Shown here piece after piece: positions 27,377 through 49,721 of a DNA stretch of 64,000 bases (position 1 is its first letter; every line of letters begins with the position of its first letter). The DNA comes from Pseudomonas sp. B21-040 (lineage in GTDB: Bacteria; Pseudomonadota; Gammaproteobacteria; Pseudomonadales; Pseudomonadaceae), in assembly GCF_024748695.1 (NCBI RefSeq), contig NZ_CP087176.1, positions 1,915,501 through 1,979,500 on the forward strand, given 5' to 3'. The position numbers were made by a program, and so were the translations under genes. The notes under the pieces are model-generated. The model ran no database searches. It was not told the origin of the DNA and saw only the letters and a program-made list of their open reading frames with translations.

Positions 27377-27456
27377 CGATATCTCCTCATCTTATTGTGG
27401 TACGAGGAGCGGTAGTGCGCACCGGGCCTCTGAGGTTGCGAGTATTGATGCGCGAA

Positions 27457-27558
27457 ATCGTGCAGTCAATACCCCTTATCGTGTATTTGCTCAGTGGTAT
27501 CGGGTATATCGTTCGGATTTGTGGTGGTATATGTGCATTGACTGCACGATATCGTGCA
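27457..27558. promoter_or_regulatory. Palindromic operators in the permease/SIS divergent promoter
   Basis: ATCGTGCAGTCAAT (27457-27470) is repeated in perfect inversion as ATTGACTGCACGAT (27537-27550). The second copy runs into the perfect 16-bp palindrome TGCACGAT/ATCGTGCA (27543-27558). A related palindrome sits before the deoR-type gene at 29585. The arrangement suggests repression with DNA looping by that regulator. Confidence 0.75.
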
Positions 27559-27600
27559 TATAGCATTGAAAAACACGCACATCGATCTTGGAGTTTCCTG

Positions 27601-29543: not shown

Positions 29544-29584
29544 CGGTGGGCTCTTTTGCGTTCAAGGGGTTAAATGGCTACTCT

Positions 29585-29602
29585 TTGCACGCAATCGTGC
29601 AA
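29585..29602. promoter_or_regulatory. Palindromic operator upstream of the DeoR-type gene
   Basis: TTGCACG-CAAT-CGTGCAA, seven perfect base pairs around four bases, 25 bp before the regulator's start. The half-site TGCACG/CGTGCA is the same as in the divergent permease/SIS promoter. Confidence 0.7.
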
Positions 29603-29626
29603 TCCCTTTCAGTAAATGAGCAGAAA

Positions 29627-30391
29627 ATGACAGCGTCCGAACGGCGGCTCCAGATTGTGGAACTCATAAAAGAGCGTGGCTACGTCAATGCCGCCGAGTT
29701 GTCCGAAATGTTCTCGGTCGACAGTTCCACTATCCGCCGGGACCTGTCATCCCTGGAGAACAGCGGCAAACTGATTCGTACCCACGGCGGTGTGCTGCCC
29801 TCGCAGGATGCCGACCAAGGCGATACGCCGTATAACGTACGACGCAACATGCATGAGCAGGGCAAAGCCGCCATTGCCCGGGCCGCGCTGGACTACATCG
29901 AGGACGGTCAATCGATCATCTTGGATAACGGCTCGACGGTGTTTCAGTTGGCGCTGGCCTTGAAAGCCCGCAAGAACATCACGGTCATTACCAATGACCT
30001 GATGATCGCGATGCAGCTCTCCCAGCACCCGAGCATTACACTGCATGTCGCCGGCGGAATGATGCTCAACAATGTTTTCACCCTGGTCGGGCCCGACACC
30101 GTGCAAAAATTCGAGAACATCCACACGGACTGGGCGTTTCTGGGGGCTGAAGGCGTGCATCCGGAAAGTGGCATCACCAATATCAACACGGTGGAAATTC
30201 CGATCAAGCAAGCGATGATCGCCTCGGCGAATCAGACCATCGTCCTGGCGGATAGCTCCAAGCTCGGATACAAGGCCTTTTCGCATGTTTGTAGCCTCGA
30301 CGCGATTACTAAAGTCATTACCGATGATCAGCAAACCATCAAGCATCGCCATACTTACGCCGACAAGCTTGAGGTTGTACCGGTCCGTTAG
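29627..30391 (+). CDS. DeoR family transcriptional repressor
   Basis: A 254-residue DeoR regulator: an N-terminal winged helix (RRLQIVELIKERGYVNAAEL, then SVDSSTIRRDLSSLE, residues 5-45) and a C-terminal sugar-phosphate-sensing domain with DNGSTVFQLALAL and IVLADSSKLGYKAFSHVC. Such repressors are released by phosphorylated sugar intermediates. Start at ATG 29627; the earlier in-frame start would translate through the palindrome. It ends the isomerase-kinase operon and probably controls it, the divergent permease and itself through the TGCACG palindromes. Confidence 0.85.
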   Translation: MTASERRLQIVELIKERGYVNAAELSEMFSVDSSTIRRDLSSLENSGKLIRTHGGVLPSQDADQGDTPYNVRRNMHEQGKAAIARAALDYIEDGQSIILDNGSTVFQLALALKARKNITVITNDLMIAMQLSQHPSITLHVAGGMMLNNVFTLVGPDTVQKFENIHTDWAFLGAEGVHPESGITNINTVEIPIKQAMIASANQTIVLADSSKLGYKAFSHVCSLDAITKVITDDQQTIKHRHTYADKLEVVPVR

Positions 30392-30534: not shown

Positions 30535-31607
30535 CACTACTTCCACTGATGAACGCATCGTTATTGAAACGCCCGTCAGCCTTAGCTCGAGAGGTCATCG
30601 GCTTGGGCACGTAGGCGGTGATGCCGGGACAAGCCAGGTTTGTTCGCTTTTGAAGTAACCTCGGTCAGCCACTACCGACAACGTTTCTGACGCCATCGCC
30701 TCGCGGGCCTGCTTGGCCATTGAGCTGAGTTGATCGCGGTCGTAACCGATGTTGGAAACCTCATGTGCAACAATCAAATGGTGCTGCGTATCGACCGCTG
30801 TCTGCACGCTGTAGCCGACGATTCCCGAACCGCGCGTCATCATGGAGCGGGCGTCTGGATCGGTCAGTGAGACCTGTTTATCCGGCGATTCATTGAGCTG
30901 GATTTCGATCGCCTGAAGCTCCTTCATTTGAGTTTTGAGTTTTGAGTTTTGAGTTTTGAGTTTTGAGTTTTGAGTTTTGAGTTTTGAGTTTTGAGCTTGG
31001 CGATTTTCACTGCCAGCCGCATGGCACTGGGCTCTGAAGCTGTGGGTTCTTGCCGATCGGCTGCATCGAGTGCCGTCAGGTAACGGTTGATACTCGATTC
31101 GATTTCTTCCATTCGCCGCTTCAGTTTGGCGCTGGTGAAATTGCGGTCGCGATTGTTGACTGCCTTGAACTTACTGCCGTCGATGGCAACCAGATTTTCT
31201 CCGAATAGTCCCAACTGTTGACACAGCACGACGAACTGGCGACATCCGCCTCGGATGGCCTTGCTGTTGTCTTTTCGGAAGTTGGCGATGGTCTTGAAAT
31301 CTGGCATCAACCGCCCGGTCAGCCACATCAGCTCGACGTTGCGTTGGGCTTCTCGCTCCAAACGTCGGCTCGACTGGATGCGGTTGAGGTAGCCGTAAAT
31401 GTAAATCTTAAGCGGGATCGCTGGGTGGTAAGCAGGCCGGCCTGTGTCGGCTGGGATAGCACCGTCAAAAACCAAGGAGACCAGGTCGAGTTCATCGACA
31501 AAGACGTCGACTACGCGCACCGGGTTGGTATCGCTGATGTAGTCGTCGAGACTCTCGGGAAGTAAGGTGCCTTGGCCTCGATGTTCACCTTGGATAAAAC
31601 GCTTCAT
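30535..31607 (-). pseudogene. Broken IS1182-type transposase
   Basis: The N-terminal frame (30924-31607) has GTLLPESLDDYISDTNPVRV and the RLMPDFKTIANFRKDN block typical of IS1182-family transposases. A run of CTCAAAA repeats then ends the frame at a TGA overlapping an ATG, and the protein continues in another frame (SPDKQVSLTDPDARSM, VVADRGYF). A second frameshift near 30630 moves GITAYVPKPMTSRAKADGR to yet another frame, and the end is truncated. No terminal inverted repeats were identified. Confidence 0.85.
30927..30995 (+). repeat. 7-bp microsatellite (TTTTGAG) in the transposase
   Basis: Nine complete TTTTGAG units plus one six-base partial unit, perfect throughout. On the coding strand they encode repeating KLKTQNS. 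Each added or lost unit shifts the frame by one base. Confidence 0.95.
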
Positions 31608-31897: not shown

Positions 31898-33964
31898 ATG
31901 ACGACTGCTGAAAATAACCATGTGGCGTGGTTGGTCGAACAATCCATGCTACATGCCGCAAGGCAACGGACCCTACTTTATTCGGGACAAGGACGCTTGT
32001 GGCAACAGCCCTATGCCCATACCCGACCTCGCGACGCTTCGGCCCTGGCTTCGGTTTGGTTTACTGCCTATCCGTCTTCCATTGTTACCCGGGAAAACGG
32101 CACCGTACTTGAGGCCTTGGGCGATGAAACCTTGTGGCATGCGCTGTCGAGGATCGGCATCCAGGGCATCCACAATGGGCCGCTGAAAAAGTCCGGGGGT
32201 CTGAGGGGGACGGAGCACACGCCGACCATCGATGGAAATTTTGACCGCATCAGTTTCGACATCGACCCGCAACTGGGCACGGAGGCGCAGCTTCAGGCGT
32301 TGACCCGCATGGCCGCCGCGCACAACGCCGTCATCATCGATGATGTCATCCCGTCTCATACCGGAAAGGGCGCGGATTTCCGTCTGGCCGAGATGGCCTA
32401 TGAAGATTATCCGGGGCTCTATCACATGGTGGAAATCCGCGATGAAGACTGGCCGCTGCTCCCTGACGTTGCAAAAGGGCGCGACGCGCAGAACCTCAAC
32501 CCGCAGCAGGTTGATGCGCTGCGAGACAAGCATTACATCGTCGGCCAGTTGCAGCGGGTGATTTTCTTCGAACCGGGTGTGAAGGAAACCGACTGGAGTG
32601 CGACGCCGATCATATTGGGCGTCGATGGCAAGCCACGGCGCTGGGTGTACTTGCATTACTTCAAGGAAGGCCAGCCCTCGTTGAACTGGCTGGACCCAAC
32701 CTTTGCCGCGCAACAGATGATCATCGGCGACGCGCTGCACGCCATAGACGTCATGGGGGCGAAAATCCTGCGTCTCGATGCCAACGGATTTCTCGGTGTG
32801 GAACGCAAGCTCGATGGCACGGCCTGGTCGGAAAGCCATCCTCTGTCCATCACCGGTAACCAGTTGCTGGGCGGGGCGATTCGCAAGGCCGGCGGCTTCA
32901 GTTTTCAGGAACTAAACCTGACCGTTGACGATATCGCCGCGATGTCCCACGGTGGTGCTGATCTCTCGTACGATTTCATCACCCGGCCGGCCTACCAGCA
33001 CGCGTTGCTGATGGGGGATACGGAATTTTTGCGACTGATGCTGCGCCAGATGCGTTCGCTAGGTATCGACCCCGGCTCGCTGATCCATGCCTTGCAGAAT
33101 CATGACGAGCTGACGCTGGAGTTGGTGCATTTCTGGACACTGCATGCCCACGACACCTTTTTGTTCCAGGGCCAGACATTCCCCGGCAACATCTTGCGCG
33201 AACACATCCGCGAGCAGATGTATGAACGCCTGGCCGGAGAACACGCGCCCTACAACCTGAAGTTCGTCACCAACGGCGTGTCGTGTACCACCGCCAGCAT
33301 CATCACGGCCGCGCTCGGGATTCGCGATCTCGATGCAATTACTGCTGCCGATATCCAACAGATCCGCCAGATTCATTTGCTGCTGGTGATGTACAACGCG
33401 ATGCAACCCGGTGTGTTCGCGTTATCGGGATGGGACCTCGTGGGTGCACTGCCGCTGCCGGCGGACCAGGTCGAACACCTGATGAGCGATGGCGATACCC
33501 GCTGGATTCACCGTGGCGCCTACGATCTGGTGGACTTGAACCCGGATGCATTGTTGTCAGCGGGCCTGATGCCCCGTCCGAAAACCCTGTACGACAGCCT
33601 GCCCACGCAATTGAAAGACCCGGATTCGTTTGCCTCGCAACTGAAGCGAATCCTGGCGGCTCGCCGAGCCTACGATATTGCCGCCAGTCGGCAGATCCTG
33701 GTTCCGGATGTCCAGCACCCAGGGCTATTGATCATGGTCCACGAATTGCCGGCGGGCAAAGGCACACAAATCACCGCGCTGAACTTTGGCGCGACACCGA
33801 TCACCGAAACCCTGCACTTGCCCAACATTGCACCGGGGCCGGTGGTCGACATCATCAATGAGCGGGTCGAGGGCGACCTCACGCCCGAGGGCGAATTCAC
33901 CATCACCCTCGATGCCTATGAAGGCCTGGCTCTGCGTATCGTCAGCAGTTCGCCGATGATCTAG
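31898..33964 (+). CDS. treS: Trehalose synthase (maltose alpha-D-glucosyltransferase), GH13
   Basis: A 688-residue GH13 enzyme, the length of the Pseudomonas-type trehalose synthases that interconvert maltose and trehalose. The barrel motifs are [12 protein letters not shown] (region I), [12 protein letters not shown] with the nucleophile Asp (region II), SFQELNLT with the acid/base Glu (region III) and [10 protein letters not shown] (region IV). No signal peptide. Start chosen at ATG 31898, with AGAGG 11 bases upstream. No glg or other tre genes accompany it. Its stop codon overlaps that of the convergent MFS gene. Confidence 0.82.
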
Positions 33965-35232
33965 GCGCGGGTGTTGCTTACGGCGGTCTGTTTGACGCCC
34001 TTCGCGGTTTTTGGCGCTCTCATCAGCAGCGGGCCAAATGTTGCGAGCAGGCCAAGCATGATCAACGGGAAAAACATCAGTGACTCCAGGCCGAACTGGC
34101 TGACGATCACGGTGATGGCGGCGGGTCCCACGAGCATGCCGGAGAAGCCGATGCAATTGACGATGCCGATGTTGCGACCGGCATGTCGCGGGTCCCGGCG
34201 TCCGGCAGCGGAAATCATCAGCGGCGCGATGCAGGAAAGTCCAAGGCCGAACAACGCAAAGCCGAGAATTCCGGTAACGACCGTGCCGCCGACGATGGTG
34301 AGGGTCATGCCCAGCACACAGACTGTGCCGCAGGCGAACACCACTTGAGCGTTACCAAAGGCCGCCGCCAGCCGGTCGCCGAACAGACGCCCGATGAACG
34401 CCGCACCGACGAATATCGACACTGCCATGCCGGCGGTGGACGTCGAGGTCGAGAACTCGCGGCGAATGTATTCCTGGCCCCAGTCGGCAATCGCGTTTTC
34501 CCCCATCATGCTGCCCAACAACAGTGCACCAAGTGCAATCATCACCAGCAGCGTTTTGGTCGATGGAGGCTTGCCGATTTCATCCGCGGACTGAGCGTCT
34601 GTTTGCCAGTCGCCTGAAGCCGCGTCGGGAACGTCATGCTTGCCCAGCAGCCAGCGGCTGAACACACAGCCGACGATCAGCATGGCAATGCCCAGCACGG
34701 TAAACGGCACTTTGACGCTGTCGGTGTAGAAACCCGTCAGCCAACTGCAGGCCATCCCGAGCAGAAAACCACCCAGCGAATAGAACGCGTGGAAGCCGGA
34801 CATGATCGAGCGCCGATAAAACCGCTCGACTTGCACACCATGGGCATTCAACGCGGTATCCAGCGCGCCGCGCAGCAAACCCAGCACCACGCCAAAACTC
34901 ATTGCAAACCAGAAACCGCTGACGAAACCCAACGGAATGATGGATAGCGGATAGGCAAGGGCGCAGACGGTGATCACCGGTTTTGCACCGAAGCTGTCCA
35001 GCAGACGGCCGACCAGCAGGGCTCCCGCCGCTGAGCCGACGCCGACCCCGAGCGCGATCAGGCCGAAGTTCGCATCACCCAGCTCGCCGGTGAAACCCAG
35101 TTGTGTCCTGAAGACACTCACCCCGGTCGACCAGATGTACATCATTGCGCCGATCATCATGAAGCCGAGGAAGGTCGCGATACGCGCCTTGCGGATGCGT
35201 GTGGGGATCGGTGTTTTTTGAACGTTATTCAT
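33961..35232 (-). CDS. MFS transporter, YbjJ/FucP-like (copy 1)
   Basis: A 423-residue, 12-segment major-facilitator transporter. It has the [17 protein letters not shown] segment and an N-terminal half rich in small residues, as in YbjJ-type and fucose permease relatives. Start at ATG 35232; the upstream extension lies in the promoter region. The 14-bp LacI-type palindrome at 35296 lies 64 bp upstream, so it should belong to the LacI regulon shared with copy 2. Sugar import is inferred from family and context. Confidence 0.8.
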
Positions 35233-35295
35233 CACGCTGCATTTGTCCCTGTTGTTTTTGTGGGGGTGTTCATGCAAAAGCTGAGTCACACAAGA

Positions 35296-35309
35296 GTTAT
35301 ACGTATAAC
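35296..35309. promoter_or_regulatory. LacI-type operator, site 1
   Basis: Perfect palindrome GTTATACGTATAAC with the central CG typical of LacI-family operators, upstream of the minus-strand MFS gene. Confidence 0.8.
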
Positions 35310-35452
35310 CCGTTCAAAAATAATATCGGTGACGGCATTGATGTCAACTGTTTCTGGGAGGCGATTGCCATTCAGGTGACATATGGCATGCAGATATGCT
35401 CGGCAAGGCGATCAGTTTTTAACGTGGCCTGTGGTCGAACAGGGTAATTTGA

Positions 35453-35466
35453 GTTATACGTATAAC
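35453..35466. promoter_or_regulatory. LacI-type operator, site 2
   Basis: Same palindrome GTTATACGTATAAC, extended here by flanking A and T to 16 bp, 28 bp before the start of the plus-strand MFS gene. Confidence 0.8.
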
Positions 35467-35494
35467 TTGCATTGATCCGAGCGCAGGGGTTTTC

Positions 35495-36664
35495 GTGTCG
35501 TCTCAAGAATTGCTACTGCCGTGCACCACGCCTCATATGTTGGCCTATCGATCGACGTTCCTGTTGTCAGGGCTGTGTATGGGTGCCTGGGCGCCCCTAG
35601 TGCCCTATGCACGCACCCGGGCCGGGGTTGACGACGCGGCCCTGGGGCTGCTGTTGCTGTGCCTGGGCTTGGGCTCATTGGTGATGATGCCACTGGCCGG
35701 CATTCTCAACGCGCGCCGGGGCTGTCGTTTTACGATGCACGTGGGCATTGCGCTGGTACTGCTGACCTTGCCTTTGTTGGCGACGACTCATTCCTTTATC
35801 GGTTTGATGTTCGCCTTGGTGGTATTTGGGGCAGGGTGCGGGTCGGTCGACGTGACCATGAACGTTCAGGGCGTGATGGTCGAGCGCGCGACGGGACGTT
35901 CACTCATGTCCGGTTTCCATGGCCTGTTCAGCCTCGGCGCGATTATCAGTGCGGCAGGTATTACCGCGTTGTTATGGCTGGGCGCCACGCCGTTGATGGC
36001 CAGCAGTGCGGTCATGGCAATCCTGGTCGCCTTCGTCCTGACCCATGGCCGCCAGTTGTTGGGGCGCAGCGGTGACGAAGGCAGCCCGATTTTTGTCCGG
36101 CCTACCCGAAAGGTTTTACTGCTGGGCATGCTGTGTCTGTTCGCCTTCCTGGCCGAAGGGGCGATTCTCGACTGGAGCGCGGTGTTCCTGGCTGACGAAC
36201 GAGGTGTCCAGCATTCCCTTGCCGGCCTGGGGTACGCCGTGTTTGCGGTGATGATGGCGCTGGGGCGATTGAACGGTGACCGGATACTGCTGAAGCTGGG
36301 GGCACGGGTGGTGTTGATCGGCGGTGGACTCGTGGTCATGTTGGGATTCGCGATGGTCGTGTTGGCCAATGACTGGCTGTTGAACCTGGTTGGGTTTGCG
36401 GTGATTGGCGCCGGTCTGGCCAACATCGCTCCGGTTTATTTGTCGCTGGCAGGTGCGCAAAAGACCATGCCTGGCGAACTGGCCATTGCCGCTGCCACCA
36501 GCCTGGGTTACCTAGGGATTTTAATGGGCCCGGCCGCCATCGGGTTTGTCGCCCATGCCAGCAGCCTGCCCCTGGCGCTGCTCGTGGTTGCCGCGCTAAT
36601 GATCGCGGTCATTGTCACTGCCACTCGGCTGGTTCCGAAGTTTTCGCCTCAACAGTTACACTGA
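35495..36664 (+). CDS. MFS transporter, YbjJ/FucP-like (copy 2)
   Basis: A 389-residue, 12-segment transporter related to copy 1: SGFHGLFSLGAIISAAG, and a GSVDVTMNVQGVMVERATGRS loop where copy 1 has [20 protein letters not shown]. Start is a GTG with CAGGGG upstream. It is divergent from copy 1 with one operator near each start, and followed after 62 bp by the LacI-type regulator. Two related carriers in one regulon may split import and export or two related substrates. Confidence 0.82.
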   Translation: MSSQELLLPCTTPHMLAYRSTFLLSGLCMGAWAPLVPYARTRAGVDDAALGLLLLCLGLGSLVMMPLAGILNARRGCRFTMHVGIALVLLTLPLLATTHSFIGLMFALVVFGAGCGSVDVTMNVQGVMVERATGRSLMSGFHGLFSLGAIISAAGITALLWLGATPLMASSAVMAILVAFVLTHGRQLLGRSGDEGSPIFVRPTRKVLLLGMLCLFAFLAEGAILDWSAVFLADERGVQHSLAGLGYAVFAVMMALGRLNGDRILLKLGARVVLIGGGLVVMLGFAMVVLANDWLLNLVGFAVIGAGLANIAPVYLSLAGAQKTMPGELAIAAATSLGYLGILMGPAAIGFVAHASSLPLALLVVAALMIAVIVTATRLVPKFSPQQLH

Positions 36665-36726
36665 GCGCGTGGCGTTTTTTATCACTGACCTCGCACGGGG
36701 TTTTCACAAAGGTTGGGAAGCAAGCG

Positions 36727-37821
36727 ATGGCATCCGTTTCAATGAAAGATGTAGCACTGGCGGCGGGGGTGTCTCAGCCTGCGGTGTCTTACGCTTACAA
36801 TCGCCCATCCAAGCTGTCCGAGGCCCAACGTGAGCATATCCTTGCCGTAGCCGCGTCGCTGGGCTACCCGGGACCCAATGTGCTTGGCCGGAGCCTTCGC
36901 TCGGGCAAGATCGGGGCGATCGGGTTGATGATGATGGACAAGTTGTCCCTGGCGTTCGCCGACCCTTGCACCGTTGCCTTGCTGCGCGGGATCAGCGAGG
37001 TGGGCGAACTGGAGAACGTTGCGCTGACGTTGTTCCCTCTCAACAACAACCGGTTGGTCGGTCGGACACCGGCAGCCAATCACGGCAGCCTGGCGCTGCG
37101 AGGGTTGGTTGATGGCTTGATCATCTCGACCCTGCCCGATGACCACCCTGCGGTACTGGCGGTGGTGAAACAGAACATTCCGTTTGTGGTGATCGATTCG
37201 CCGCTGGTGGAAGGTGCTTTTTTTGTCGGGATCGATGACCGGGGGGCCGCCCGCACGCAGGTGCAGCACTTGCTGGATCTGGGGCATCGCAAAATAGGGA
37301 TCATCATTGACCGTCTGAACCCTGACGGTTATCGCGGTCCGATCGATCCGCAGCGTTTCAAGCATGCCAGTGAGCGCATTGTCAGGGAGCGGCTGACCGG
37401 CTACGTCGAGGCGGCGAATGCGGCTGGCCTGGCATTCGAGGACCTGAGCATTATCGAAGCTGGTGGACTGGATTCGACGTCCGGGCAAGCGGCCGCGTTT
37501 ACCCTGCTGACGTCCAGCGACGTCACGGCGGTGGTTGCCTGTTCCGATGTGATGGCGATCGCTTGCATGAAAACGGCTCACGCGCTCAATCGCAAGGTTC
37601 CGCAAGACCTGTCGGTGATCGGTTTCGACGACATTCCCGAAGCGGTGCAATTGGGCCTGACTACTATTGGTCAACCCATGGTGGAGAAGGGCGTCTACGC
37701 CGCGAGGCTTTTGACCGAGCAACTCAATGCACCGGCCGACACCCGGCTTGAGCCTGAGCAGAAGATTTTCGCCACCAAACTGATCGTGCGTGGTTCAACC
37801 CAGAAGGTGCCGGGCGTTTAA
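36727..37821 (+). CDS. LacI family transcriptional regulator
   Basis: A 364-residue regulator with an N-terminal LacI headpiece (SMKDVALAAGVSQPAVSYAY, residues 5-24, with the hinge helix near NVLGRSLRSG) and a periplasmic-binding-like sensor domain ending with VIGFDDIPEAVQLGLTTIGQ. GGGAAG precedes the ATG. It is the only LacI-type protein in the window, and the matching central-CG palindromes occur only at the neighbouring MFS, ThuA and HisD-like promoters, so it is the obvious regulator of all of them. Confidence 0.87.
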   Translation: MASVSMKDVALAAGVSQPAVSYAYNRPSKLSEAQREHILAVAASLGYPGPNVLGRSLRSGKIGAIGLMMMDKLSLAFADPCTVALLRGISEVGELENVALTLFPLNNNRLVGRTPAANHGSLALRGLVDGLIISTLPDDHPAVLAVVKQNIPFVVIDSPLVEGAFFVGIDDRGAARTQVQHLLDLGHRKIGIIIDRLNPDGYRGPIDPQRFKHASERIVRERLTGYVEAANAAGLAFEDLSIIEAGGLDSTSGQAAAFTLLTSSDVTAVVACSDVMAIACMKTAHALNRKVPQDLSVIGFDDIPEAVQLGLTTIGQPMVEKGVYAARLLTEQLNAPADTRLEPEQKIFATKLIVRGSTQKVPGV

Positions 37822-37839
37822 CCGCGCTCATGGCATCAG

Positions 37840-37866
37840 GCTGCGGTGTAATCACTACACCGCAGC
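37840..37866. terminator. Hairpin between convergent LacI and GMC genes
   Basis: Eleven-base-pair perfect stem, GCTGCGGTGTA/TACACCGCAGC, with a five-base loop and no T-run. It lies 19 bp after the LacI gene and 10 bp before the GMC stop; probably limits convergent transcription. Confidence 0.55.
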
Positions 37867-37875
37867 GCTTGCCGC

Positions 37876-39486
37876 TCAGGACACTTCGTGTTTGAAGTTC
37901 GCCGCGACCCGCAGGGCGTTGGCAGCGATGGTGAGTGCCGGATTGACCGCGGCCGAGGACGGGAAGAACGAACTGTCGACCACCCAGACATTGTCCAGGT
38001 CGTGCATCTTGCAGTTGAGGTCCAGCACGCTCGACGCCGGGTCCTTGCCCATGACCGCCGTACCGCATTGATGCGAGTTGGTGGCAATGCCCATGCGCGC
38101 CTTGAGGATCAGCGGATAGCCCGCGGCCCGCATGACACGGCTGGTCTTGTTCACCAGGCCTTCATGGGCTTTGAGGTTGTTGGGTGTCCAATGGACCTTG
38201 ATCGCACCCCGTTGCGCGTCATACGTGATCCGGTTTTCCTGGGTGGGCAGGTCTTCCGACGTCAGGTACAGGTCGACGCTGTGATCGGTGATGTATCGCG
38301 AGGCGAACTTCGGCAGCCACGGACGCATGGAGCTGATCATGGGTTCGCGAATTTTCCCCAGCATCTGCACGTTACCCAGAGGAAACGCGTTGTTCGCACC
38401 GGCGCTGTACCAGTCGTTGAGGGCCAGGGTCTTCTGGAATACCACCTTGTTCTTGCGTCGAGGGTCTACCGCCAGCATGAAGGTGCTGTTGTGCACCATG
38501 TAATTGCGACCCACTTGCCCTGAGCTGTTGCCCAGGCCTTCGGGGTGCTGTTCGTTTGCCGACTTGAGCAGCAGCGCAGCGCTGTTCACGGCTCCGCAGG
38601 CCAATACGAAGCGCTTGGCACGCAGCGTCACTGCACGACCCTCGATCAGGCCGTGGGCCTCAGTGACCGTCCGCCCGTCTGCCGCTGTCTTCAGTTGGTT
38701 GATCGTGGTACGGGTCAACAGCCTGACGGTTGCACTGCGCAAGGCCGGTCTCAACGCGCTGACCTCTGCGTCAGCTTTGGCGTCCAGCAGGCAAGGGTAC
38801 CCATCACACGTTGAACAGAGTACGCAGTCACCGCCATTGCCATAGTCCACTGCCGCGGGCATCACAAAAGGCTTGAGCCCGGACCGGCGCATGCTCTGCT
38901 CCAGGGAGGCCAGGGCAGGGTCATGTTTGAGCGCAGGTCTTGGGTAGGGGCCTGAGCGCCAAGGCTCGCTGGGATCTACGCCTGCTGCGCCATGCACGCG
39001 GTAGAGTTTTTCCGCCTCGTCGTACCAGGGCTCCAGGTCCGCATAGCTGATCGGCCAGGCCGGGGAGAGGCCTTCGGCGTGCTGGATTTCGGCAAAGTCG
39101 GCTTCGCGAAACCGTGGCAGCATCGCGCCGTAGAATTTGGTGTTGCCGCCGACGTAATAAAAAACGCCTGGCGAAAAGGGTTGGTTGGATTCGTCCAGCC
39201 ATTGTTCGGCATTGCGATAACGGCCTTGGCCGAAAACCGATTCGGTGCTCCAGTTCTGTATTTCTCGCGGCAGGAAATCACCGCGTTCAACGATGACAAT
39301 GTCCAGTCCGCTGTCGCGCAGCGCATGGGCAAAGGTCGAACCGCCCATGCCCGAGCCGATAATCACCACATCACAATTGATATTGCCATCTGCATCAGGT
39401 GTCACCACGTCGAGGGCGCGCGGTTCGCGCGACGCCCCCGATTGTGGATTCAGCTCTGCATGATGCGTAATCAATGCATCACTCAT
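37876..39486 (-). CDS. GMC oxidoreductase, sugar 3-dehydrogenase-like (copy 2)
   Basis: A 536-residue FAD enzyme distinct from the choline-dehydrogenase-like copies. It has VVIIGSGMGGSTFAHALRD with a VERGDFLP strand, the region GVFYYVGGNTKFYGAMLPRF, a Cys-rich block CVLCSTCDGYPC (about 222-233), and a C-terminal HQCGTAVMG and NPALTIAANALR. This is the pattern of GMC dehydrogenases acting on sugars (pyranose/glucoside-oxidising type). No Tat signal and no small subunit nearby. Third gene of the ThuA-TPP operon, 17 bp after the TPP gene; GGAG before the ATG. Confidence 0.82.
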   Translation of the reverse strand: MSDALITHHAELNPQSGASREPRALDVVTPDADGNINCDVVIIGSGMGGSTFAHALRDSGLDIVIVERGDFLPREIQNWSTESVFGQGRYRNAEQWLDESNQPFSPGVFYYVGGNTKFYGAMLPRFREADFAEIQHAEGLSPAWPISYADLEPWYDEAEKLYRVHGAAGVDPSEPWRSGPYPRPALKHDPALASLEQSMRRSGLKPFVMPAAVDYGNGGDCVLCSTCDGYPCLLDAKADAEVSALRPALRSATVRLLTRTTINQLKTAADGRTVTEAHGLIEGRAVTLRAKRFVLACGAVNSAALLLKSANEQHPEGLGNSSGQVGRNYMVHNSTFMLAVDPRRKNKVVFQKTLALNDWYSAGANNAFPLGNVQMLGKIREPMISSMRPWLPKFASRYITDHSVDLYLTSEDLPTQENRITYDAQRGAIKVHWTPNNLKAHEGLVNKTSRVMRAAGYPLILKARMGIATNSHQCGTAVMGKDPASSVLDLNCKMHDLDNVWVVDSSFFPSSAAVNPALTIAANALRVAANFKHEVS

Positions 39487-39503
39487 TTGAGCCGCTCCAG
39501 TTC

Positions 39504-41291
39504 TTATAGGTGTTGTTCGGAGTTGCGCAGTTCCCGGTATTCGTCCTGGCGCTCATCGGTGATGTACTCAGGAATCGGGAAGTCCCACCAACCCGGTACC
39601 CAAGGGCCCGCAGCGTCGCGGTCGGTCGGGACCTCGATCAGCACCGGCGCGTTCAAATCCAGGGCTTCCTGCAGGATCGGCTCTAGGTCTTCCGGGCGCT
39701 CCACACGGTAGGACTTCAGGCCGAAGGCTTCGCCCACCGCCTTGAAGTCCGGGCTATATGGAGTGCCATCCGGATGGTTGAACTCGGTACCGATATGGCG
39801 GCTGGTCTGCTTGCGCTGGCCACCGCGAATCGACATGTACCCGGCATTGTTCTGGATCATGAACACGACTGGAATGTTATTGGTCACGCAGATCGCAATT
39901 TCCTGCGAGGTCATCAGGAAGTCACCGTCACCCAGGATGCACACCACCGGCTGGTTCGGCGCAGCCAGCTTGGCGCCGATGGCGGCAGGTACGGCCCAGC
40001 CCATGGAGGAGAACCCGCCGGAGGTCAGGTGAGTGCGAGGGGTATAGACCGGGAAGGTCTGCTTGACCGCGCCCTGGGTATTGCCGGAGCCGACCACTAC
40101 TATGGTGTCCCGCGGGAAAATCTTGCGCAGCGCACCCAGTGGACGTTGAGAAGTGAACGGGAAACGGTCCGAGTCACGACGACCGGCCAGCTTGGTTTCC
40201 CATTCATTCTGATAGCCACGCAGATCGCTAAGGTACGATTCGCGATCGACGGTCTGACCCTTTAGGCCTTCGACGATGGCGGCGAGGGCGTACTTGGCGT
40301 CGGCGCAAATGCCTACGGTCACCGGGTAGTTCTTGCCGATTTCGTGCGGGTCGATGTCGATGTGAATCAGCTTCGACGGCGGAATCGCAAAGGTCACGCC
40401 CTTGGCGTAGCTGGACGATGACCAGTCGGTGAAGCGGCAACCCACGGCGATAATCACATCGGCGGTGGAAGCCACTTTGTTGCCGCACATCGTGCCGGTC
40501 TGTCCGACGCTGCCGGCGAACAATTCATGGTCCTCGGGGAAACCGCTTTTGCCGTTCCAGGTGGTGACCACCGGGATTTTCCACGCTTCGGCCAGGGCCA
40601 GGATCTCGGCGTGCGCTTCACCGGTAATCACACCGCCACCGATCACGAGCACCGGGCGTTGGCAGGCTTGCAGTTCTTGCACGGCACGGGCGGTGGCCGC
40701 CGGGTCAGGGAACGATTTGCCGATCGGGGTGCGCTCTTCGAGGTCATGCAGCGTCACTTCAGCCGCTTCGGCTTGCACGTCCATCGGAATTTCGATGTGC
40801 ACCGGGCCAGGACGGCCGGTGACCATCGCGCTCCAGGCGCGGTGCATCATGAACGGCAGCTCTTCGACGCGCGTTGCGACCCAATGGCGCTTGGTCACCG
40901 CTTCGGCGATTTTCGGGAAATCGTTATCGGTGTAGCGCTCCAGTTCTTGCAGCAAACCGTGGCCGCGCATGTGGGTGGGCGGCCCACCGGTGATCAGCAT
41001 GAGGCTGGTGGAGTCGGTGAAGGCCGTGGCGAGACCAATGATGGTGTTGGTGGCACCGGCGCCGATGGACGTGACAGCCGCCATCGGCTTGCCGCACACC
41101 CGGTAGTAACCGTCTGCCAGGTGCACGGCACTCTGCTCGTGGAAGACCTGGATGAACTTGAGTTTCGAGTCTTCTTCGAGAAAGGCGTCGGTGAGTGTCC
41201 AGATACCGTGGCCGGGAATACCGGCGACATACTCGACGCCGTAGTTTTTCAGGGTTTGTGCCACGATCTGGCTGCCGGTCAATTTGCTCAT
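39504..41291 (-). CDS. Thiamine-diphosphate-dependent enzyme, acetolactate-synthase-like
   Basis: A 595-residue three-domain TPP enzyme. The PYR domain has the activating glutamate E52 in HEQSAVHLADGY; the central domain includes LVIGGGVITGEAHAEI; the PP domain carries GDGDF (454-458) with the paired Asn at 481-482 (metal/TPP motif). Acetolactate synthase, IolD-type hydrolase and oxalyl-CoA-type enzymes share this layout, so the substrate is open. It overlaps thuA by 4 bases and precedes the GMC gene, so it acts in the same pathway. A shorter paralogue lies at 52613. Confidence 0.82.
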   Translation of the reverse strand: MSKLTGSQIVAQTLKNYGVEYVAGIPGHGIWTLTDAFLEEDSKLKFIQVFHEQSAVHLADGYYRVCGKPMAAVTSIGAGATNTIIGLATAFTDSTSLMLITGGPPTHMRGHGLLQELERYTDNDFPKIAEAVTKRHWVATRVEELPFMMHRAWSAMVTGRPGPVHIEIPMDVQAEAAEVTLHDLEERTPIGKSFPDPAATARAVQELQACQRPVLVIGGGVITGEAHAEILALAEAWKIPVVTTWNGKSGFPEDHELFAGSVGQTGTMCGNKVASTADVIIAVGCRFTDWSSSSYAKGVTFAIPPSKLIHIDIDPHEIGKNYPVTVGICADAKYALAAIVEGLKGQTVDRESYLSDLRGYQNEWETKLAGRRDSDRFPFTSQRPLGALRKIFPRDTIVVVGSGNTQGAVKQTFPVYTPRTHLTSGGFSSMGWAVPAAIGAKLAAPNQPVVCILGDGDFLMTSQEIAICVTNNIPVVFMIQNNAGYMSIRGGQRKQTSRHIGTEFNHPDGTPYSPDFKAVGEAFGLKSYRVERPEDLEPILQEALDLNAPVLIEVPTDRDAAGPWVPGWWDFPIPEYITDERQDEYRELRNSEQHL

Positions 41292-42013
41292 GACAGGACT
41301 CCTTGGGTTGATGAAAGCGGGGTGGATGCGGTGGTTTTGCCGTGACCTTCAGCGCGTCCGCGCGTTGCCCAGTTCAGGCCCTGCTTGGTCAGGCGGCGAA
41401 TGTTCGGGTCGGCCAGGTTGCTGGTGTCGTGGCCGATGGAGTGGTAGAAAACCCGTCCCTGACCCCACTGGCGTACCCAGGCGACCGGGCTGCGATGACC
41501 CTTGATCCAGGGGAACGGATTGCCGTCGAACGTGGTTTCGGCGAGCACATGGATGTTCGGGTCCACTTGCATGTAGTACTGCTCGGAACGCACCTCGAAA
41601 TCCTCGACGCCTTGAGTGACCTCATGGGTGTGGTCGATCACGTTGACCTGGTAAGGATGGGGAAAGCCTTCGCCCATCGGATGCTCGAGAAAGGAGCCAC
41701 CCAGTACCCAGTGGTACTTGAGGCTTGCACGAAAAGCCGCGCCCGCACCGTGCCAACCCACCAGGCCGGTGCCGCTTTCGATCGCTTCGAGCAGGCGGTT
41801 TTCCTGAGATGCGGTCAGCGTTTCAGTGGTAACTGCGTTGTTCCAGCCAATGACGATCAGGTCGTAACCGGTCAAATCCCTGTCCAAGGTGAAGATGTCT
41901 GTGGACTCTTCAACGTCGAAATCCAGCTCCTGGAAAACGGTCCGGGCCCAAGCGGCGATTTCATAGGGGAAATGGCCGGGCCAGCCACCGTATAGATACA
42001 AGACTCGACTCAC
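41288..42013 (-). CDS. ThuA-like family protein
   Basis: A 241-residue protein with the ThuA (trehalose-utilisation) flavodoxin-like fold: LYLYGGWPGHFPYE at the start, YDLIVIGWNNAVTTE, the GLVGWHGAGAAFR motif, and WVRQWGQGRVFYHSIGH near the end. ThuA proteins act in 3-keto-sugar metabolism in Rhizobium relatives; the chemistry is only partly known. The start is GTG with AGAGGTGAC upstream. It heads the operon thuA-TPP-GMC, 35 bp downstream of a LacI-type operator. Confidence 0.82.
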   Translation of the reverse strand: MSRVLYLYGGWPGHFPYEIAAWARTVFQELDFDVEESTDIFTLDRDLTGYDLIVIGWNNAVTTETLTASQENRLLEAIESGTGLVGWHGAGAAFRASLKYHWVLGGSFLEHPMGEGFPHPYQVNVIDHTHEVTQGVEDFEVRSEQYYMQVDPNIHVLAETTFDGNPFPWIKGHRSPVAWVRQWGQGRVFYHSIGHDTSNLADPNIRRLTKQGLNWATRGRAEGHGKTTASTPLSSTQGVLS

Positions 42014-42047
42014 GGTTAGTCACCTCTTTGGTTGGTTGTGATTGTTA

Positions 42048-42063
42048 GGTTATACGTATAACC
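42048..42063. promoter_or_regulatory. LacI-type operator, site 3
   Basis: GGTTATACGTATAACC, a perfect 16-bp palindrome with the same 14-bp core as sites 1 and 2. It lies just upstream of the thuA operon and within the divergent region shared with the HisD-like gene. Confidence 0.8.
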
Positions 42064-42215
42064 GCTTATTTAAGCTATCACTCAAAACGGCGCTGTCAAT
42101 GCCTGGAGTGCATTTTTTAATTGAATGGCCAAGTCGGCCTGGAGATTCGTCAAGATGGCGTGAATGGCCACAAACAACGGAACAGTTTTGTTCGCTGCGC
42201 TTTTGATAAGAAAAG

Positions 42216-42229
42216 GTTATACGAATAAT
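42216..42229. promoter_or_regulatory. LacI-type operator, degenerate site 4
   Basis: GTTATACGAATAAT matches the 14-bp operator except at two positions and lies upstream of the HisD-like gene; together with site 3 it could allow looping across the divergent promoter. Confidence 0.5.
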
Positions 42230-42409
42230 AGAGATGCCCGTGCCAGAGCGGCGGTGCTGTCAACAGTGCTTCAACTTTGCGTCTGTGCTGCGTCAGATCG
42301 CGTCAGCAATAAACCCGCTGCGAAATTGCCGGGAGCAGGGGGGTGAGAAAAGATGTTTGCCAAGGCTGAGTGCATGTTGCGTGCATCAAGAACCACCTGG
42401 AGCAAATTG

Positions 42410-43693
42410 ATGATTCGTTATCTGAAAAAAAGTAAGCCCGTCGAAGCCCAAGCAGAAATCGCCTCCCAAGTCCGCGATACGGTCGAGCAGATCATTGCCA
42501 ATGTCGCCAAAAACGGTGATGCAGCCGTTCGGGAGTATTCGAAGAAATTTGATAAGTGGGAGCCTGCTACCTTCCGCTTGACCGACGAAGAAATCGCCGC
42601 GTGTGTGGCCAGTCTGTCGGAACAGGAAATCGGCGACATCAAATTTGCGCAGGCACAGGTCCGTCGGTTTGCCGAAGTGCAGAAAGCCTCGATGCACGAT
42701 GTCGAAGTCGAAACACTCCCGGGTGTGATCCTGGGGCATCGCAATATTCCGGTGAACTCGGTGGGCTGCTACATCCCCGGCGGTAAGTATCCGTTGTTGG
42801 CGTCGGCACACATGAGCGTATTGACCGCCAAGGTGGCGGGGGTGAAGCGTGTGGTGGCAGCGGCTCCGCCGTTCGACGGCAAGCCACATCCGGCCATCGT
42901 GACGGCCATGTACCTCGCCGGTGCCGATGAAATCTATTGTGTGGGCGGGGTTCAGGCCATTGCCGCGTTGGCATTGGGCACAGATGACTTCAAGCCGGTC
43001 GATATGATCGTCGGCCCGGGCAACGCCTTTGTCGCCGAAGCCAAGCGCCAGCTGTTCGGCAAAATCGGCATCGATCTGATTGCCGGCCCGACCGAAACAC
43101 TGGTGATCGCCGATGACAGTTCCGACGTTGAAATCATTGCCGCAGACTTGCTGGGTCAGGCCGAGCACGGCGTCAACTCGCCAGCGGTGTTTTTGACCAA
43201 CAGCGCTGAACTGGCAGAAACCCTGCCGGCGGAAATCGAGCGTCAGCTGGCCATTCTGTCGACCGCGCCGGTCGCCTCCGTCGCCTGGCGTGACTATGGC
43301 GAGATCATCCTGTGCGACACCGTGGACGAATTGGTCCAGGAAGCCGACCGCATTGCCTCCGAACACGTCCAGGTCATGACCCGTGACCCGCTGTATTTCC
43401 TGGAGCACATGACCAACTACGGTGCGCTGTTTCTCGGAGAGCGGACCAACGTTTCCTACGGCGACAAGGTGATCGGCACCAACCACACACTGCCTACCAC
43501 CGGGACGGCGCGTTACACCGGCGGCCTGTGGGTCGGCAAGTTTATCAAGACCTGCACTTATCAACGTGTCTTGACGGACGAGGCCTCTGTGCTGGTGGGC
43601 GAGTACTGCTCGCGCCTGTGCGGCATGGAAGGCTTTGCCGGGCACAAGGAACAGGCGGATATCCGCATTCGGCGTTACAAGCAGCCAGTCTGA
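42410..43693 (+). CDS. HisD-family dehydrogenase, HpsN-like (catabolic histidinol-dehydrogenase paralogue)
   Basis: A 427-residue NAD-dependent zinc dehydrogenase of the histidinol dehydrogenase family. Motifs: [35 protein letters not shown], the zinc/catalytic LLGQAEHG and SEHVQVMT segments, and [20 protein letters not shown]. The last motif and the overall pattern match HpsN-type (sulfopropanediol dehydrogenase) relatives; no other his gene is near, so a biosynthetic role is unlikely. It should oxidise a primary alcohol to a carboxylate. Start ATG 42410 with TGGAGC upstream. A strong terminator follows. Confidence 0.83.
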
Positions 43694-43870
43694 TGTCTGC
43701 CGTTTATAGAGCGCAACGTTTGTCTGGGTGAGAGCGTTCGTTCTCCAACATCGAACCGACGGATCTCACCAGGTCACTGGTTAGTTGCAACACTTGGCAA
43801 GTGGGTAGCGGGAAAAAGGGTCGTTTCTCGGTACTACGGGTCACTCTTACCGCTTGCTAAGTGTTTTCAG

Positions 43871-43897
43871 GCTCCCCAACTGGGGGGCTTTTTTTTT
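43871..43897 (+). terminator. Intrinsic terminator
   Basis: Seven-base-pair stem GCTCCCC/GGGGGGC (one G-T) with loop AACT and nine T. It ends the HisD-like transcript 25 bp before the chemoreceptor gene. Confidence 0.8.
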
Positions 43898-46094: not shown

Positions 46095-47690
46095 CTACAG
46101 GGCCTGATCAGCACGCAGAATGTGATCAGCCGCTTTCTCGCCGATCATGATTGCCAGTGCATTGGTGTTGCTGGAGCACAAGCTCGGTGCGATGGAGTTG
46201 TCGGCGATCCGCAGGCCATTGATGCCGTGTACCCGCAGATCGTTGTTCACCACCGCCATGGCGTCCGTACCCATCTTGCAGGTGCCCACCGGATGCAGCG
46301 CGGCGTGGGCGTGTTGGCGCACGAAGCGCCGATAGTCGTCACGTGTGCGTAACGGTTCTGCGGGCACGTGCTCGCGCAGAATGTGGCCGGCCAATGCAGC
46401 TTGGGACATGATGTGCCGACCAAACTCAGTGGCCTGTGCCATGCACTCCACGTCGAGCGGGTCGGTCAGGTAATTAGGCTCGATGCGGGGCAAGTTCATG
46501 GGGTCTGCGCTGCGCAGTTGCAGGAATCCGCTGGAACGGGGACGGGTCTGACACACGTTCAAGGTGCAGCCGTTGCCACCGGGGACGGAACCTACACCGG
46601 CCTCGACGCCGGCCCCGGCCATGAAACAGTACTGGGCGTCCGCGCGGTTCTCGGCCAGAGAAGTACGCCAGAACGCGCCACCTTCGACCACGTTGGAGGT
46701 CACCGGGCCTTGCCGGAACAAGGCGTACTGCAAGCCGGCGGCGATCTTCCAGTGCGGCGTCTTGTACTTGTCGTAGCTCAAGGGGCGACGCAGTTCATTG
46801 ATCAACGACACCTCGATGTGATCCTGCAGGTTTTGACCGACCCCTGGCAGGTCATGGATGCACTTGATGCCCTTGTCGTGCAGGTGAGTGGCGGGACCAA
46901 TGCCCGACAGCATCAACAGTTTTGGCGTATTGATCGCCCCGGCGCTGACAATCACTTCGCGTTCTGCCCGCAAAACATGACGACGGTTTTTCTCCAGGTA
47001 TTCAACGCCAGTGGCCCGACCGTTCTCGACCAGGATTCGCAGCACCCGGCAATTGGTCTTCACCGTCAGGTTGGGGCGCCGCCGCGCGGGTTTGAGATAG
47101 GCCACCGAAGTGCTCGATCGCAGGCCGTTGCTGGCGTTGATCTGATACAGCCCGCAACCGTCCTGCACCCCGGAGTTGAAATCGGCGTTATAGGCCAGAC
47201 CTGCCTGCTGGCAGGCCTGTAGCCAGAGTTTGGTCAAGGGGTGGGTGAAATGTTGATCGCAGACGCCGAGCGGGCCGTCGGTGCCATGGGCGTCGTTGCT
47301 GAAGCGGTCATTGTTTTCGCATTTCTTGAAGAACGGCAGTACGTCCTTGTAGGCCCAGCCCCAGGCACCGCCATCGGCCCAACTGTCGTAGTCGGCAGGT
47401 TGCCCGCGCAAGTAAACCATGGCGTTTACCGAACTCCCGCCGCCGAGCACCCGGGCCTGCACCATGGTCGGATTCGGCGTGCCGATATAATCGGCTGGTG
47501 GTTCCCAGGGGTAGCGTTCAACCAGGTTGCCCTGGCTGGTTTTATAGAAACCCACCGGCAGATGAATGAATGGGTGGGTGTCTCTCGGCCCTTCTTCCAG
47601 CAGCACGACTGACGCCAGTGAATCTTCGCTCAGGCGCGCGGCGATGACGCACCCGGCTGACCCACCCCCGACCACGATGTATTGGACCAT
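46095..47690 (-). CDS. GMC oxidoreductase, choline-dehydrogenase-like (copy 3)
   Basis: A 531-residue FAD-dependent alcohol dehydrogenase: IVVGGGSAGCVIAARLSED, EEGPRDTHPF, the RVLGGGSSVNAMVYLRG signature, INTPKLLMLSGIG and C-terminal HAALHPVGTCKMG plus NALAIMIGEKAAD. It is a close paralogue of the gene at 59956 (shared TMVQA-VLGGGSSVNAM, GCGLYQI, SYDKYK, SVPGGNGCTLN). It follows the ABC importer on the same strand but behind a terminator. Substrate unknown; likely oxidises an imported polyol or glycoside. Confidence 0.88.
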   Translation of the reverse strand: MVQYIVVGGGSAGCVIAARLSEDSLASVVLLEEGPRDTHPFIHLPVGFYKTSQGNLVERYPWEPPADYIGTPNPTMVQARVLGGGSSVNAMVYLRGQPADYDSWADGGAWGWAYKDVLPFFKKCENNDRFSNDAHGTDGPLGVCDQHFTHPLTKLWLQACQQAGLAYNADFNSGVQDGCGLYQINASNGLRSSTSVAYLKPARRRPNLTVKTNCRVLRILVENGRATGVEYLEKNRRHVLRAEREVIVSAGAINTPKLLMLSGIGPATHLHDKGIKCIHDLPGVGQNLQDHIEVSLINELRRPLSYDKYKTPHWKIAAGLQYALFRQGPVTSNVVEGGAFWRTSLAENRADAQYCFMAGAGVEAGVGSVPGGNGCTLNVCQTRPRSSGFLQLRSADPMNLPRIEPNYLTDPLDVECMAQATEFGRHIMSQAALAGHILREHVPAEPLRTRDDYRRFVRQHAHAALHPVGTCKMGTDAMAVVNNDLRVHGINGLRIADNSIAPSLCSSNTNALAIMIGEKAADHILRADQAL

Positions 47691-47710
47691 TGTTGTTCAC
47701 CGTTCAGGTC

Positions 47711-47756
47711 AAAAAAACGCCGGATCAGACTCTTGGTGAAGAGGTGATCCAGCGTT
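47711..47756 (-). terminator. Minus-strand terminator of the ABC importer operon
   Basis: A long hairpin: outer stem AACGCCGGATCA/TGATCCAGCGTT (one mismatch) capped by CTCTT-GGTG-AAGAG. On the minus strand it is followed by seven T. Confidence 0.85.
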
Positions 47757-47816
47757 GGCGTTACTGGCAGACCCTGCGCGAAATGCAGCAGGGATTGTCG
47801 TTCAAACGAAAGCTGT

Positions 47817-48896
47817 TCAGGCGGGTATCACCACGAAGCTGTCCGGTTTGCAGGTCAAGGCGACATCCGCACCCGGCGGCAGAGTGAGGCTGCCGGGGGT
47901 GGGCAATTGCTGGCATTTGAGGTCAATGGTTCCGCCGGCTACGGCGACGCGGTAAATGACCCGATTGCCGATGAACGAGGTATCTTTGACCTTTCCGATA
48001 AAGGCGCCGTCTGCCAGCGGGTTGCCCTTGGCTGGCTCAAGGCAGATGGTTTCCGGACGGATCGAGACATTGACCGGCCCGGCACTCAGGCTGTTTTTGG
48101 CCGTGTGTGCGTAGCGCCCGAACGGAAGCTCGACATAACCACTGGTGGTATCGCCCAGCCCATAGGTGCCGTTGACGATATTGGTGTCGCCGAAAAATTT
48201 GGCGGCGAACAACGTACGCGGCGACCAATACATCTCCTGCGGTCCACCAATCTGCTCGATGCCACCCTTGTTCAGCAGGACCACCCGGTCGGACAGGATC
48301 ATCGCTTCGTCCTGGTCATGGGTGACGTAAACGAAGGTGGTCGAAGTCTCTTCGTGGATCCTTTTTATCTCATTGAGCATGTGGTGGCGAATCTTCAGGT
48401 CAAGTGCCGCGAGTGGCTCGTCGAGCAACAGCACGGCGGGGCGATTAACCAAGGCCCGAGCTAGGGCGACCCGTTGCGCCTGGCCGCCACTGAGTTCGGA
48501 GATCCAGCGATTCTTGAAGCTTTCCAGTTGCACCAGTTCCAATGCCTTGGTCACTTCACGCTTGATTTCATCCCGCGGTTTCTTCTTCAGGCGCAAGCCG
48601 AAAGCCACGTTGTCGAAGACATCGAGATGCGGGAACAGGGCATACTTCTGGAACACCATGTTGACGGGGCGATGTTCCGGCGCCAGTGCCGTGGAGTCCT
48701 TGCCATCGATCACCACTTTGCCGGTGGTGGGCTCTTCGAAGCCGGCAATGATGCGCATCAGTGTGGTCTTGCCGCAGCCACTTGGGCCCAGCAACGTCAG
48801 GATTTCGTTGCGCTTTACGGTCAGGTCGACTTTGCCCAGGGCAGTCAGATTACCGTAGCTCTTGGATATTCCGGTCAGTTCGATGCTGTTGGTCAT
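47817..48896 (-). CDS. ABC importer ATPase, PotA/FbpC-like
   Basis: A 359-residue ATPase with Walker A GPSGCGKT (37-44), signature LSGGQ (135-139), Walker B LLLDEP (156-161), a Q-loop VFQKYALFP, an H-loop VTHDQDE and a C-terminal TOBE domain (about 280-350). It powers import by the two permeases just upstream, the closest 5 bp away. The family imports polyamines, ferric iron or other charged compounds. Last gene of the operon before the terminator. Confidence 0.92.
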   Translation of the reverse strand: MTNSIELTGISKSYGNLTALGKVDLTVKRNEILTLLGPSGCGKTTLMRIIAGFEEPTTGKVVIDGKDSTALAPEHRPVNMVFQKYALFPHLDVFDNVAFGLRLKKKPRDEIKREVTKALELVQLESFKNRWISELSGGQAQRVALARALVNRPAVLLLDEPLAALDLKIRHHMLNEIKRIHEETSTTFVYVTHDQDEAMILSDRVVLLNKGGIEQIGGPQEMYWSPRTLFAAKFFGDTNIVNGTYGLGDTTSGYVELPFGRYAHTAKNSLSAGPVNVSIRPETICLEPAKGNPLADGAFIGKVKDTSFIGNRVIYRVAVAGGTIDLKCQQLPTPGSLTLPPGADVALTCKPDSFVVIPA

Positions 48897-48901
48897 GGCG
48901 A

Positions 48902-49693: not shown

Positions 49694-49721
49694 GGCGAGT
49701 TACCTTTTTTATGAGCGGTCA

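Follow-up and report, generated by a model that had tools for sequence, protein, structure and literature searches.

A 14-bp palindrome as the probable operator of a local LacI-family regulator at a conserved gene cluster of Pseudomonas

The window analysed in this work is the whole stretch of 64,000 nucleotides taken from Pseudomonas sp. B21-040 (contig NZ_CP087176.1, forward strand, positions 1,915,501 to 1,979,500). It contains a cluster composed of two MFS transporter genes, a gene for a LacI-type regulator and the genes of a GMC oxidoreductase (GMC1), a thiamine-pyrophosphate (TPP) enzyme, a ThuA-domain protein and a HisD/HpsN-like dehydrogenase. Four copies of a 14-bp palindrome, called putative operators below, lie among these genes. 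The features are the following, in window coordinates.

33961..35289, minus strand: MFS1 transporter (PF07690, 92.5 bits)
35296..35309, minus strand: putative operator 1, exact palindrome at the MFS1 promoter, starting 10 nt past the TATTAT -10-like hexamer
35320..35347, minus strand: MFS1 promoter-like site TTGACA-16-TATTAT (11/12 matches)
35453..35466, plus strand: putative operator 2, an exact copy in front of MFS2-lacI, at 28 bp from the GTG 35495
35495..36664, plus strand: MFS2 transporter (PF07690, 78.1 bits)
36727..37821, plus strand: LacI-type regulator with the helix region VSQPAVSYAYN (PF00356, 38.9 bits for a cut-off of 27; PF13377, 98.2 bits)
37876..39486, minus strand: GMC oxidoreductase GMC1 (PF05199, PF00732)
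39504..41291, minus strand: TPP enzyme (PF02775, PF00205, PF02776)
41288..42013, minus strand: ThuA-domain protein (PF06283, 150.4 bits for a gathering score of 33.4)
42049..42062, minus strand: putative operator 3, an exact copy in front of thuA-TPP-GMC, at 35 bp from the GTG 42013
42094..42099, minus strand: TTGACA, -35-like, upstream of thuA, its start 37 nt before the operator start
42216..42229, plus strand: putative operator 4, a weaker copy with two changes, upstream of the HisD-like gene
42353..43693, plus strand: HisD/HpsN-like dehydrogenase (profile matches and alignment to solved relatives)
43869..43890, plus strand: terminator-like hairpin between the HisD-like and chemoreceptor genes (9 pairs, then a T run)

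Two of these reading frames are probably shorter than listed. MFS1 probably starts at the in-frame ATG 35232 and not at the GTG 35289, and the HisD-like protein probably at the ATG 42410, because it aligns with solved relatives only from residue 20 onwards. The best solved relatives of GMC1 are named glucose dehydrogenase and fructose dehydrogenase. The structure model of the ThuA protein (pLDDT 83.6) best matched ThuA-like structures, so that both the PF06283 domain and the fold are shared with other ThuA proteins; the titles of the solved ThuA-like structures carry no function. The partner genes of the thuAB trehalose system are, as we take it, different from those of this cluster. Elsewhere in the window, a transposase-like frame recognised by eye (30924-31607) ends in a tandem KTQNSKL repeat and lies near an AgaS-ROK-DeoR-like gene group (27397-30391).

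The palindrome GTTATACGTATAAC was found exactly at 35296, 35453 and 42049 and with two mismatches at 42216, which reproduces the four positions given in the initial annotation. As described there, the sites lie in the promoter regions of the two MFS genes and of thuA-TPP-GMC, and upstream of the HisD-like gene. The same annotation held that the palindrome occurs nowhere else in the window, and this stands: a scan allowing up to three mismatches returned five sites in total, of which the fifth, at 1432, is not palindromic. None of 100 shuffled windows contained five such matches (mean 0.56). The LacI-type gene is, as was claimed, the only one in the window; the genome has five in total.

When the search was extended to the genome (one contig of 6,753,303 bases), GTTATACGTATAAC occurred exactly three times, every copy being in the cluster. 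With up to two mismatches, eight sites were obtained, four at the cluster and four scattered, compared with 11 matches for the backward-read control pattern in the same genome; there is thus no surplus outside the cluster, and the many copies elsewhere that would have spoken against a local regulon were not found.

The same question was asked of the genus, in a sample of 398 Pseudomonas genomes including that of the window, where matches to the TPP enzyme were sought first and exact copies of the palindrome second. The TPP enzyme was matched at E <1e-100 in 23 genomes, in 21 of them at 83% identity or more and in the other two at 44-45%. The exact palindrome was present in 20 genomes, all among the 21 with the closer enzyme; the 21st cluster genome (G414) carries a one-mismatch copy, and none of the 377 genomes outside these 21 has an exact one. 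Exact copies are thus confined to cluster-bearing genomes also among the 397 other Pseudomonas genomes, and the backward control pattern was matched exactly in two of all 398 genomes. The exact sites number 49, and 48 of them are on the contig of the TPP gene and at most 8 kb from it; the 49th, in G252, is on a separate contig of an assembly that breaks inside the TPP gene, and a one-mismatch site lies 166 nt away from it. When one mismatch is allowed, the number of sites at the cluster in the other 20 genomes that carry it is exactly four in 16 cases, two in two and one in two; the control pattern gave 4 matches altogether in the same 20 genomes.

More distant relatives were then considered. 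A scan of named genomes gave 130 stretches with a gene related to that of the TPP enzyme, and the best 80 of the 130 were analysed; 18 of these are close Pseudomonas loci and 62 are more distant. The genes for the TPP enzyme, GMC1, the HisD-like dehydrogenase and ThuA were found together within 10 kb in 60/80 loci (43/62 outside the close Pseudomonas), and the TPP gene was accompanied by at least two of the three others in 75/80 and by none in two, in counts for which several of the 80 loci are cut by contig ends. This co-localisation across phyla supports the earlier proposal that the genes belong to one pathway.

The transporters vary by lineage. In place of the MFS proteins of the window cluster, sugar-type ABC systems were seen in the P. 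nitroreducens group, in Paraburkholderia/Caballeronia and in Dongia, a ribose-type ABC system in Leucobacter, and APC-type amino-acid permeases in Streptomyces and relatives, Pseudarthrobacter, Scopulibacillus, a lichen Sphingomonadaceae and Paraburkholderia. This diversity bears on a possibility that we regard as unlikely, namely that the operator is real and yet the genes do not form a single catabolic pathway, the MFS proteins exporting, for example, a toxic compound that the enzymes modify. Such a role would suit the fact that MFS1 matches named transporters only remotely, MFS2 doing likewise in NCBIfam, and that the enzymes occur in many loci where relatives of the window MFS genes are absent. 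However, the site is also attached to uptake-type genes: in the P. nitroreducens group, where a relative of MFS1 is found as well, three loci have a one-mismatch copy 108-131 bp before the gene for the sugar-ABC binding protein, and an amino-acid permease gene of two Paraburkholderia is preceded by the operator at 109 bp.

A catabolic module is the reading that we prefer, and the neighbouring genes give an indication of what it may degrade. Aspartase-type genes were found in 17/80 loci (with a simple ORF caller, one group member being checked against families) and in 5/11 plasmid relatives (Priestia, Ensifer adhaerens, Thalassospira, Ensifer canadensis and Paracoccus); none was found in two haloarchaeal plasmid relatives. 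The window genome has an aspartase outside the cluster (684 bits for a curated cut-off of 681). Since aspartase and amino-acid permease genes neighbour the cluster, the substrate is suggested to be a sugar-like compound with nitrogen.

To place the sites relative to promoters, the window and 18 relatives were compared (19 loci), which left 18 rows once L059 was omitted because its contig ends within the cluster. The sequence TTGAC was kept in 18/18 rows at both mfs1 and thuA; in the window it lies 38 nt and 37 nt upstream of the operator, respectively. At mfs1, a sigma-70-like scan recognised TTGACA-16-TATTAT, ending 10 nt before the operator; a promoter was thus recognised by the scan for one of the four units only. 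As the scan of 10 kb gave this single match against 3.2 expected in shuffles, the weight of the mfs1 promoter rests on its conservation and not on the scan. At mfs2-lacI, a -10-like sequence is found within the operator itself. The places of the operators at mfs1, thuA and mfs2-lacI fit a blocking of the transcription start. On the other side of the cluster, the HisD-like gene is set apart from the chemoreceptor gene by the terminator-like hairpin at 43869, and the window scan showed no operator before the chemoreceptor gene, GMC2 or TreS.

The fourth site is weak and lies 180 bp from the probable start of the HisD-like gene. It is nevertheless conserved: among the 17 close relatives compared in which four sites are present, 16 have GTTATTCGTATAAC here (one mismatch), and the remaining one, L062, has a two-mismatch form. 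The remote position would agree with a LacI that activated some promoters, or required a corepressor, instead of acting by simple repression and induction. We consider this improbable, given that the mfs1 and thuA operators are at the expected transcript start, downstream of the -35-like element, an arrangement that fits blocking better. The spacing of paired sites was 91-157 bp for the MFS pair, leaving out L062, in which 4 kb separate the two sites, and 58-184 bp for the thuA-HisD pair; these spacings vary without an evident helical phase, and DNA looping between the sites is therefore not claimed.

The product of the gene at 36727 combines the two features of the LacI family, a helix-turn-helix domain (PF00356) and a periplasmic-binding-like effector domain (PF13377). 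According to Ravcheev et al. 2014 (PMC4052901), most LacI-family motifs are even palindromes of 16-22 nt with a central CG. The present sites likewise form a conserved even palindrome with a central CG near the starts of the target genes, and the cluster resembles the local regulons described there by its sites close upstream, by self-regulation and by a small number of transporter and catabolic genes; it differs in that the conserved symmetric part is 14 nt long. The available main text of the same paper makes no mention of ThuA, histidinol, Pseudomonas or Rhodococcus. Its rhizobial ThuR motif, natcnAAAnCGnTTTngatt, differs from the window core TTATACGTATAA and from the whole operator GTTATACGTATAAC, and membership of the ThuR regulon was rejected on this ground.

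The relation between regulator and site was examined in the 80 loci, LacI being scored as present at 250 bits or more against the window protein. The core TTATACGTATAA (at most one mismatch) was found in 30/38 loci with LacI and in 0/42 without. Without the 18 close Pseudomonas loci, these numbers became 12/20 and 0/42. The corresponding Fisher values (5.5e-15 for 80 loci, 5.8e-8 for 62) are only indicative, because the loci share descent and the association is confounded with GC content, the LacI-less loci being mostly GC-rich actinobacteria, so that the cases are not independent. As a further control, the 62 more distant loci contained 13 exact core copies, compared with no more than 1 copy for any of the 59 remaining palindromes with this composition. 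The regulon proposed initially around this LacI protein is thus upheld, the presence of the core site following that of a regulator of the 36727 type.

Eight of the 38 LacI-bearing loci have no core site within one mismatch; their best sites show two mismatches in L070, L101 and L113, three in L088, L099 and L102, and four in L118 and L121. In Paraburkholderia/Caballeronia (L064, L067 and L069) the site becomes CTTATACGTATAAG, in which both arms are changed, a pattern that would follow from the reading of the two ends by a symmetric dimer. The LacI proteins of these loci have the same recognition helix as the window protein, and the outer-base change is consequently not explained by the helix. 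In Scopulibacillus, two copies of a different palindrome, GTGAACCGGTTCAC, lie between the LacI gene and GMC1 (L126:8080 and L126:8158), which suggests an independent LacI switch on the same module.

Twelve further genomes behind chosen loci were scanned with the pattern STTATACGTATAAS, site positions being converted by hand. Fourteen exact sites were found in 11 of the 12 genomes, and 13 are inside cluster loci by their coordinates. The 14th, in Rhodococcus koreensis, is about 34 kb from the TPP gene, flanked by an aspartase-like frame (recognised by eye) on one side and by a GMC gene on the other. The site likewise precedes a GMC gene in R. opacus, R. wratislaviensis and R. jostii, with the aspartase cluster just upstream. 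The exact palindrome thus occurs in four Rhodococcus genomes, which belong to another phylum, each time before a GMC gene beside aspartase. The Rhodococcus LacI has a recognition helix different from that of the window protein; in these genomes, no within-threshold site adjoins lacI, and the site is not between lacI and thuA.

That the exact Rhodococcus site is not beside lacI, together with the four further LacI-type genes of the window genome, leaves some room for the view that the palindrome is bound by another regulator, of the LacI type or of another family, and that the adjacent LacI acts elsewhere. Against it stands the distribution of the core site, which is seen in most LacI-bearing loci and in none of those lacking LacI, and we judge this view very unlikely. 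A chance match or a dispersed repeat is hardly credible in the face of the uniqueness of the palindrome in the genome and of its conservation.

We are therefore confident in assigning the palindrome, as operator, to the LacI-family product of the gene at 36727; this protein would be a local, self-regulating repressor of a catabolic module. This reading is founded on the uniqueness of the sites in the genome, the agreement between sites and genes in 398 genomes, the association of the core with LacI and the conserved position, all of which are direct observations on DNA; from them we infer the binding of LacI, repression rather than activation, the existence of an inducer and the chemistry of the module. 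In the absence of the effector, a LacI dimer would occupy the mfs1 and thuA promoters at their start region, the -10-like region of mfs2-lacI and, ahead of the HisD-like gene, the weaker site. LacI would be released by an inducer, for which the substrate or an early product is the probable candidate, and the two transporters and four enzymes (ThuA, TPP enzyme, GMC oxidoreductase and HisD-like dehydrogenase) would then be made together. As a catabolic module, the enzymes would break down a polyhydroxylated compound that probably contains nitrogen.

The enzymes were compared with curated families. The TPP enzyme scored below the cut-off of every model among the best 25 of the 60 NCBIfam models matched, and its best solved relative is BbmA. 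It shares the three-domain TPP-enzyme family with IolD and acetolactate synthase but falls under both curated cut-offs, with 311 bits for 715 (IolD, TIGR04377) and 403 bits for 538 (acetolactate synthase large subunit, TIGR00118), and neither identity was retained. Two haloarchaeal relatives were found at about 45% identity. One of them, on a Haloterrigena plasmid (L153, 45%), is beside a gene annotated iolM and sugar oxidoreductases, and the other is not beside iolM; this is a hint that the TPP branch includes cyclitol enzymes.

The HisD-like protein passed the cut-off of TIGR00069 (453 bits for 243.8). The best HisD-family copy of the genome, taken as a proxy for the biosynthetic enzyme, reached 540 bits; it is located at genome position 977309 and is not the cluster gene. 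The closest solved relatives of the cluster protein are sulfopropanediol dehydrogenases (HpsN, 392 bits), and its catalytic Glu-His and metal-ligand motifs appear to be kept when the alignment is inspected by eye. In HpsN, as described in PMC11382572, His126 and Lys353 hold the sulfonate. The sulfonate-contacting Lys is likewise present in the HisD-like proteins, being kept in the alignment in 82/82 loci with a match, but the defining His126 is replaced by Leu in 77 of 78 covering loci, including the window protein, and by Met in one. Sulfopropanediol was rejected as substrate on the ground of the missing His126. By analogy, the substrate may be an anion of the same shape with a carboxylate for the sulfonate; candidate reactions would be 3,4-dihydroxybutanoate to malate or 3-amino-4-hydroxybutanoate to aspartate, and the recurrence of aspartase favours an aspartate product. 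If this is true, the HisD-like proteins form a third branch of a known enzyme family.

Taken together, these elements allow a tentative proposal, in which the operator, kept between two phyla through descent or transfer of the module with its switch, would mark a widespread pathway for a polyhydroxylated nitrogen compound, with the GMC, ThuA, TPP and HisD-like enzymes and then aspartase acting in sequence. Possible substrate classes are iminosugars, aminocyclitols, amino sugars or Amadori-type compounds. The GMC enzyme would oxidise a ring hydroxyl, ThuA would open the ring or eliminate, and the TPP enzyme would hydrolyse a 1,2-dicarbonyl, as IolD does. The HisD-like enzyme would oxidise a four-carbon amino alcohol bearing a carboxylate to aspartate, from which aspartase would release ammonia, or else a diol of this type to malate.

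Several precise substrates were considered and set aside. Trehalose came into question because of ThuA and the nearby TreS; the latter is convergent to MFS1, has no operator and is within 10 kb of the TPP gene in only 11/80 loci. Calystegine was prompted by Streptomyces species among the loci, which we take to be potato-scab species; among the matches listed, the titles and abstract beginnings of open-licence PMC articles contained none on its bacterial breakdown. S. meliloti and cac were not found together in the open-licence PMC literature, and no record by the name of S. meliloti was among the 40 plasmid records matched at E <1e-100. For aminocyclitol catabolism, no open-licence PMC paper with the full combination of terms was found. 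Mycosporines, 1-deoxynojirimycin and Amadori compounds were approached by reasoning alone, which led nowhere.

In open-licence PMC papers, no joint description was found of ThuA, acetolactate synthase, GMC oxidoreductase and LacI, nor of ThuA and histidinol dehydrogenase even as a pair, nor of a catabolic set with histidinol dehydrogenase, aspartate ammonia-lyase, GMC and LacI; one such paper brings ThuA together with trehalose utilization, 3-keto and glycoside. The pathway marked by the operator may be new. The regulator itself would be an ordinary LacI-family switch, and its value lies in pointing to the pathway: a single short sequence reveals a conserved group of enzymes, spread from Pseudomonas to Rhodococcus, whose database names (histidinol dehydrogenase, acetolactate synthase, trehalose utilisation) come from pathways unrelated to one another. 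Whatever releases the repressor would offer a direct route to the substrate.

Other genes were observed around the cluster. Past its end in the window (46095-50657), there are a choline-dehydrogenase-like GMC gene and ABC genes recognised by eye as polyamine-type, without operator; relatives of this GMC gene are within 10 kb of the TPP gene in 19/62 more distant loci. In mycobacterial clusters (L114-L116, L118 and L121-L125), the TPP gene has nearby OYE-type oxidoreductases that resemble a family linked to mycofactocin but score under its cut-off, in several cases with a mycofactocin-coupled SDR. Finally, genes for small GH3 (NagZ-like) glycosidases recur near the cluster in several phyla (L065, L073, L074, L088, L148, L150, L151, L157 and L158), so that a glycoside may be the form taken up.
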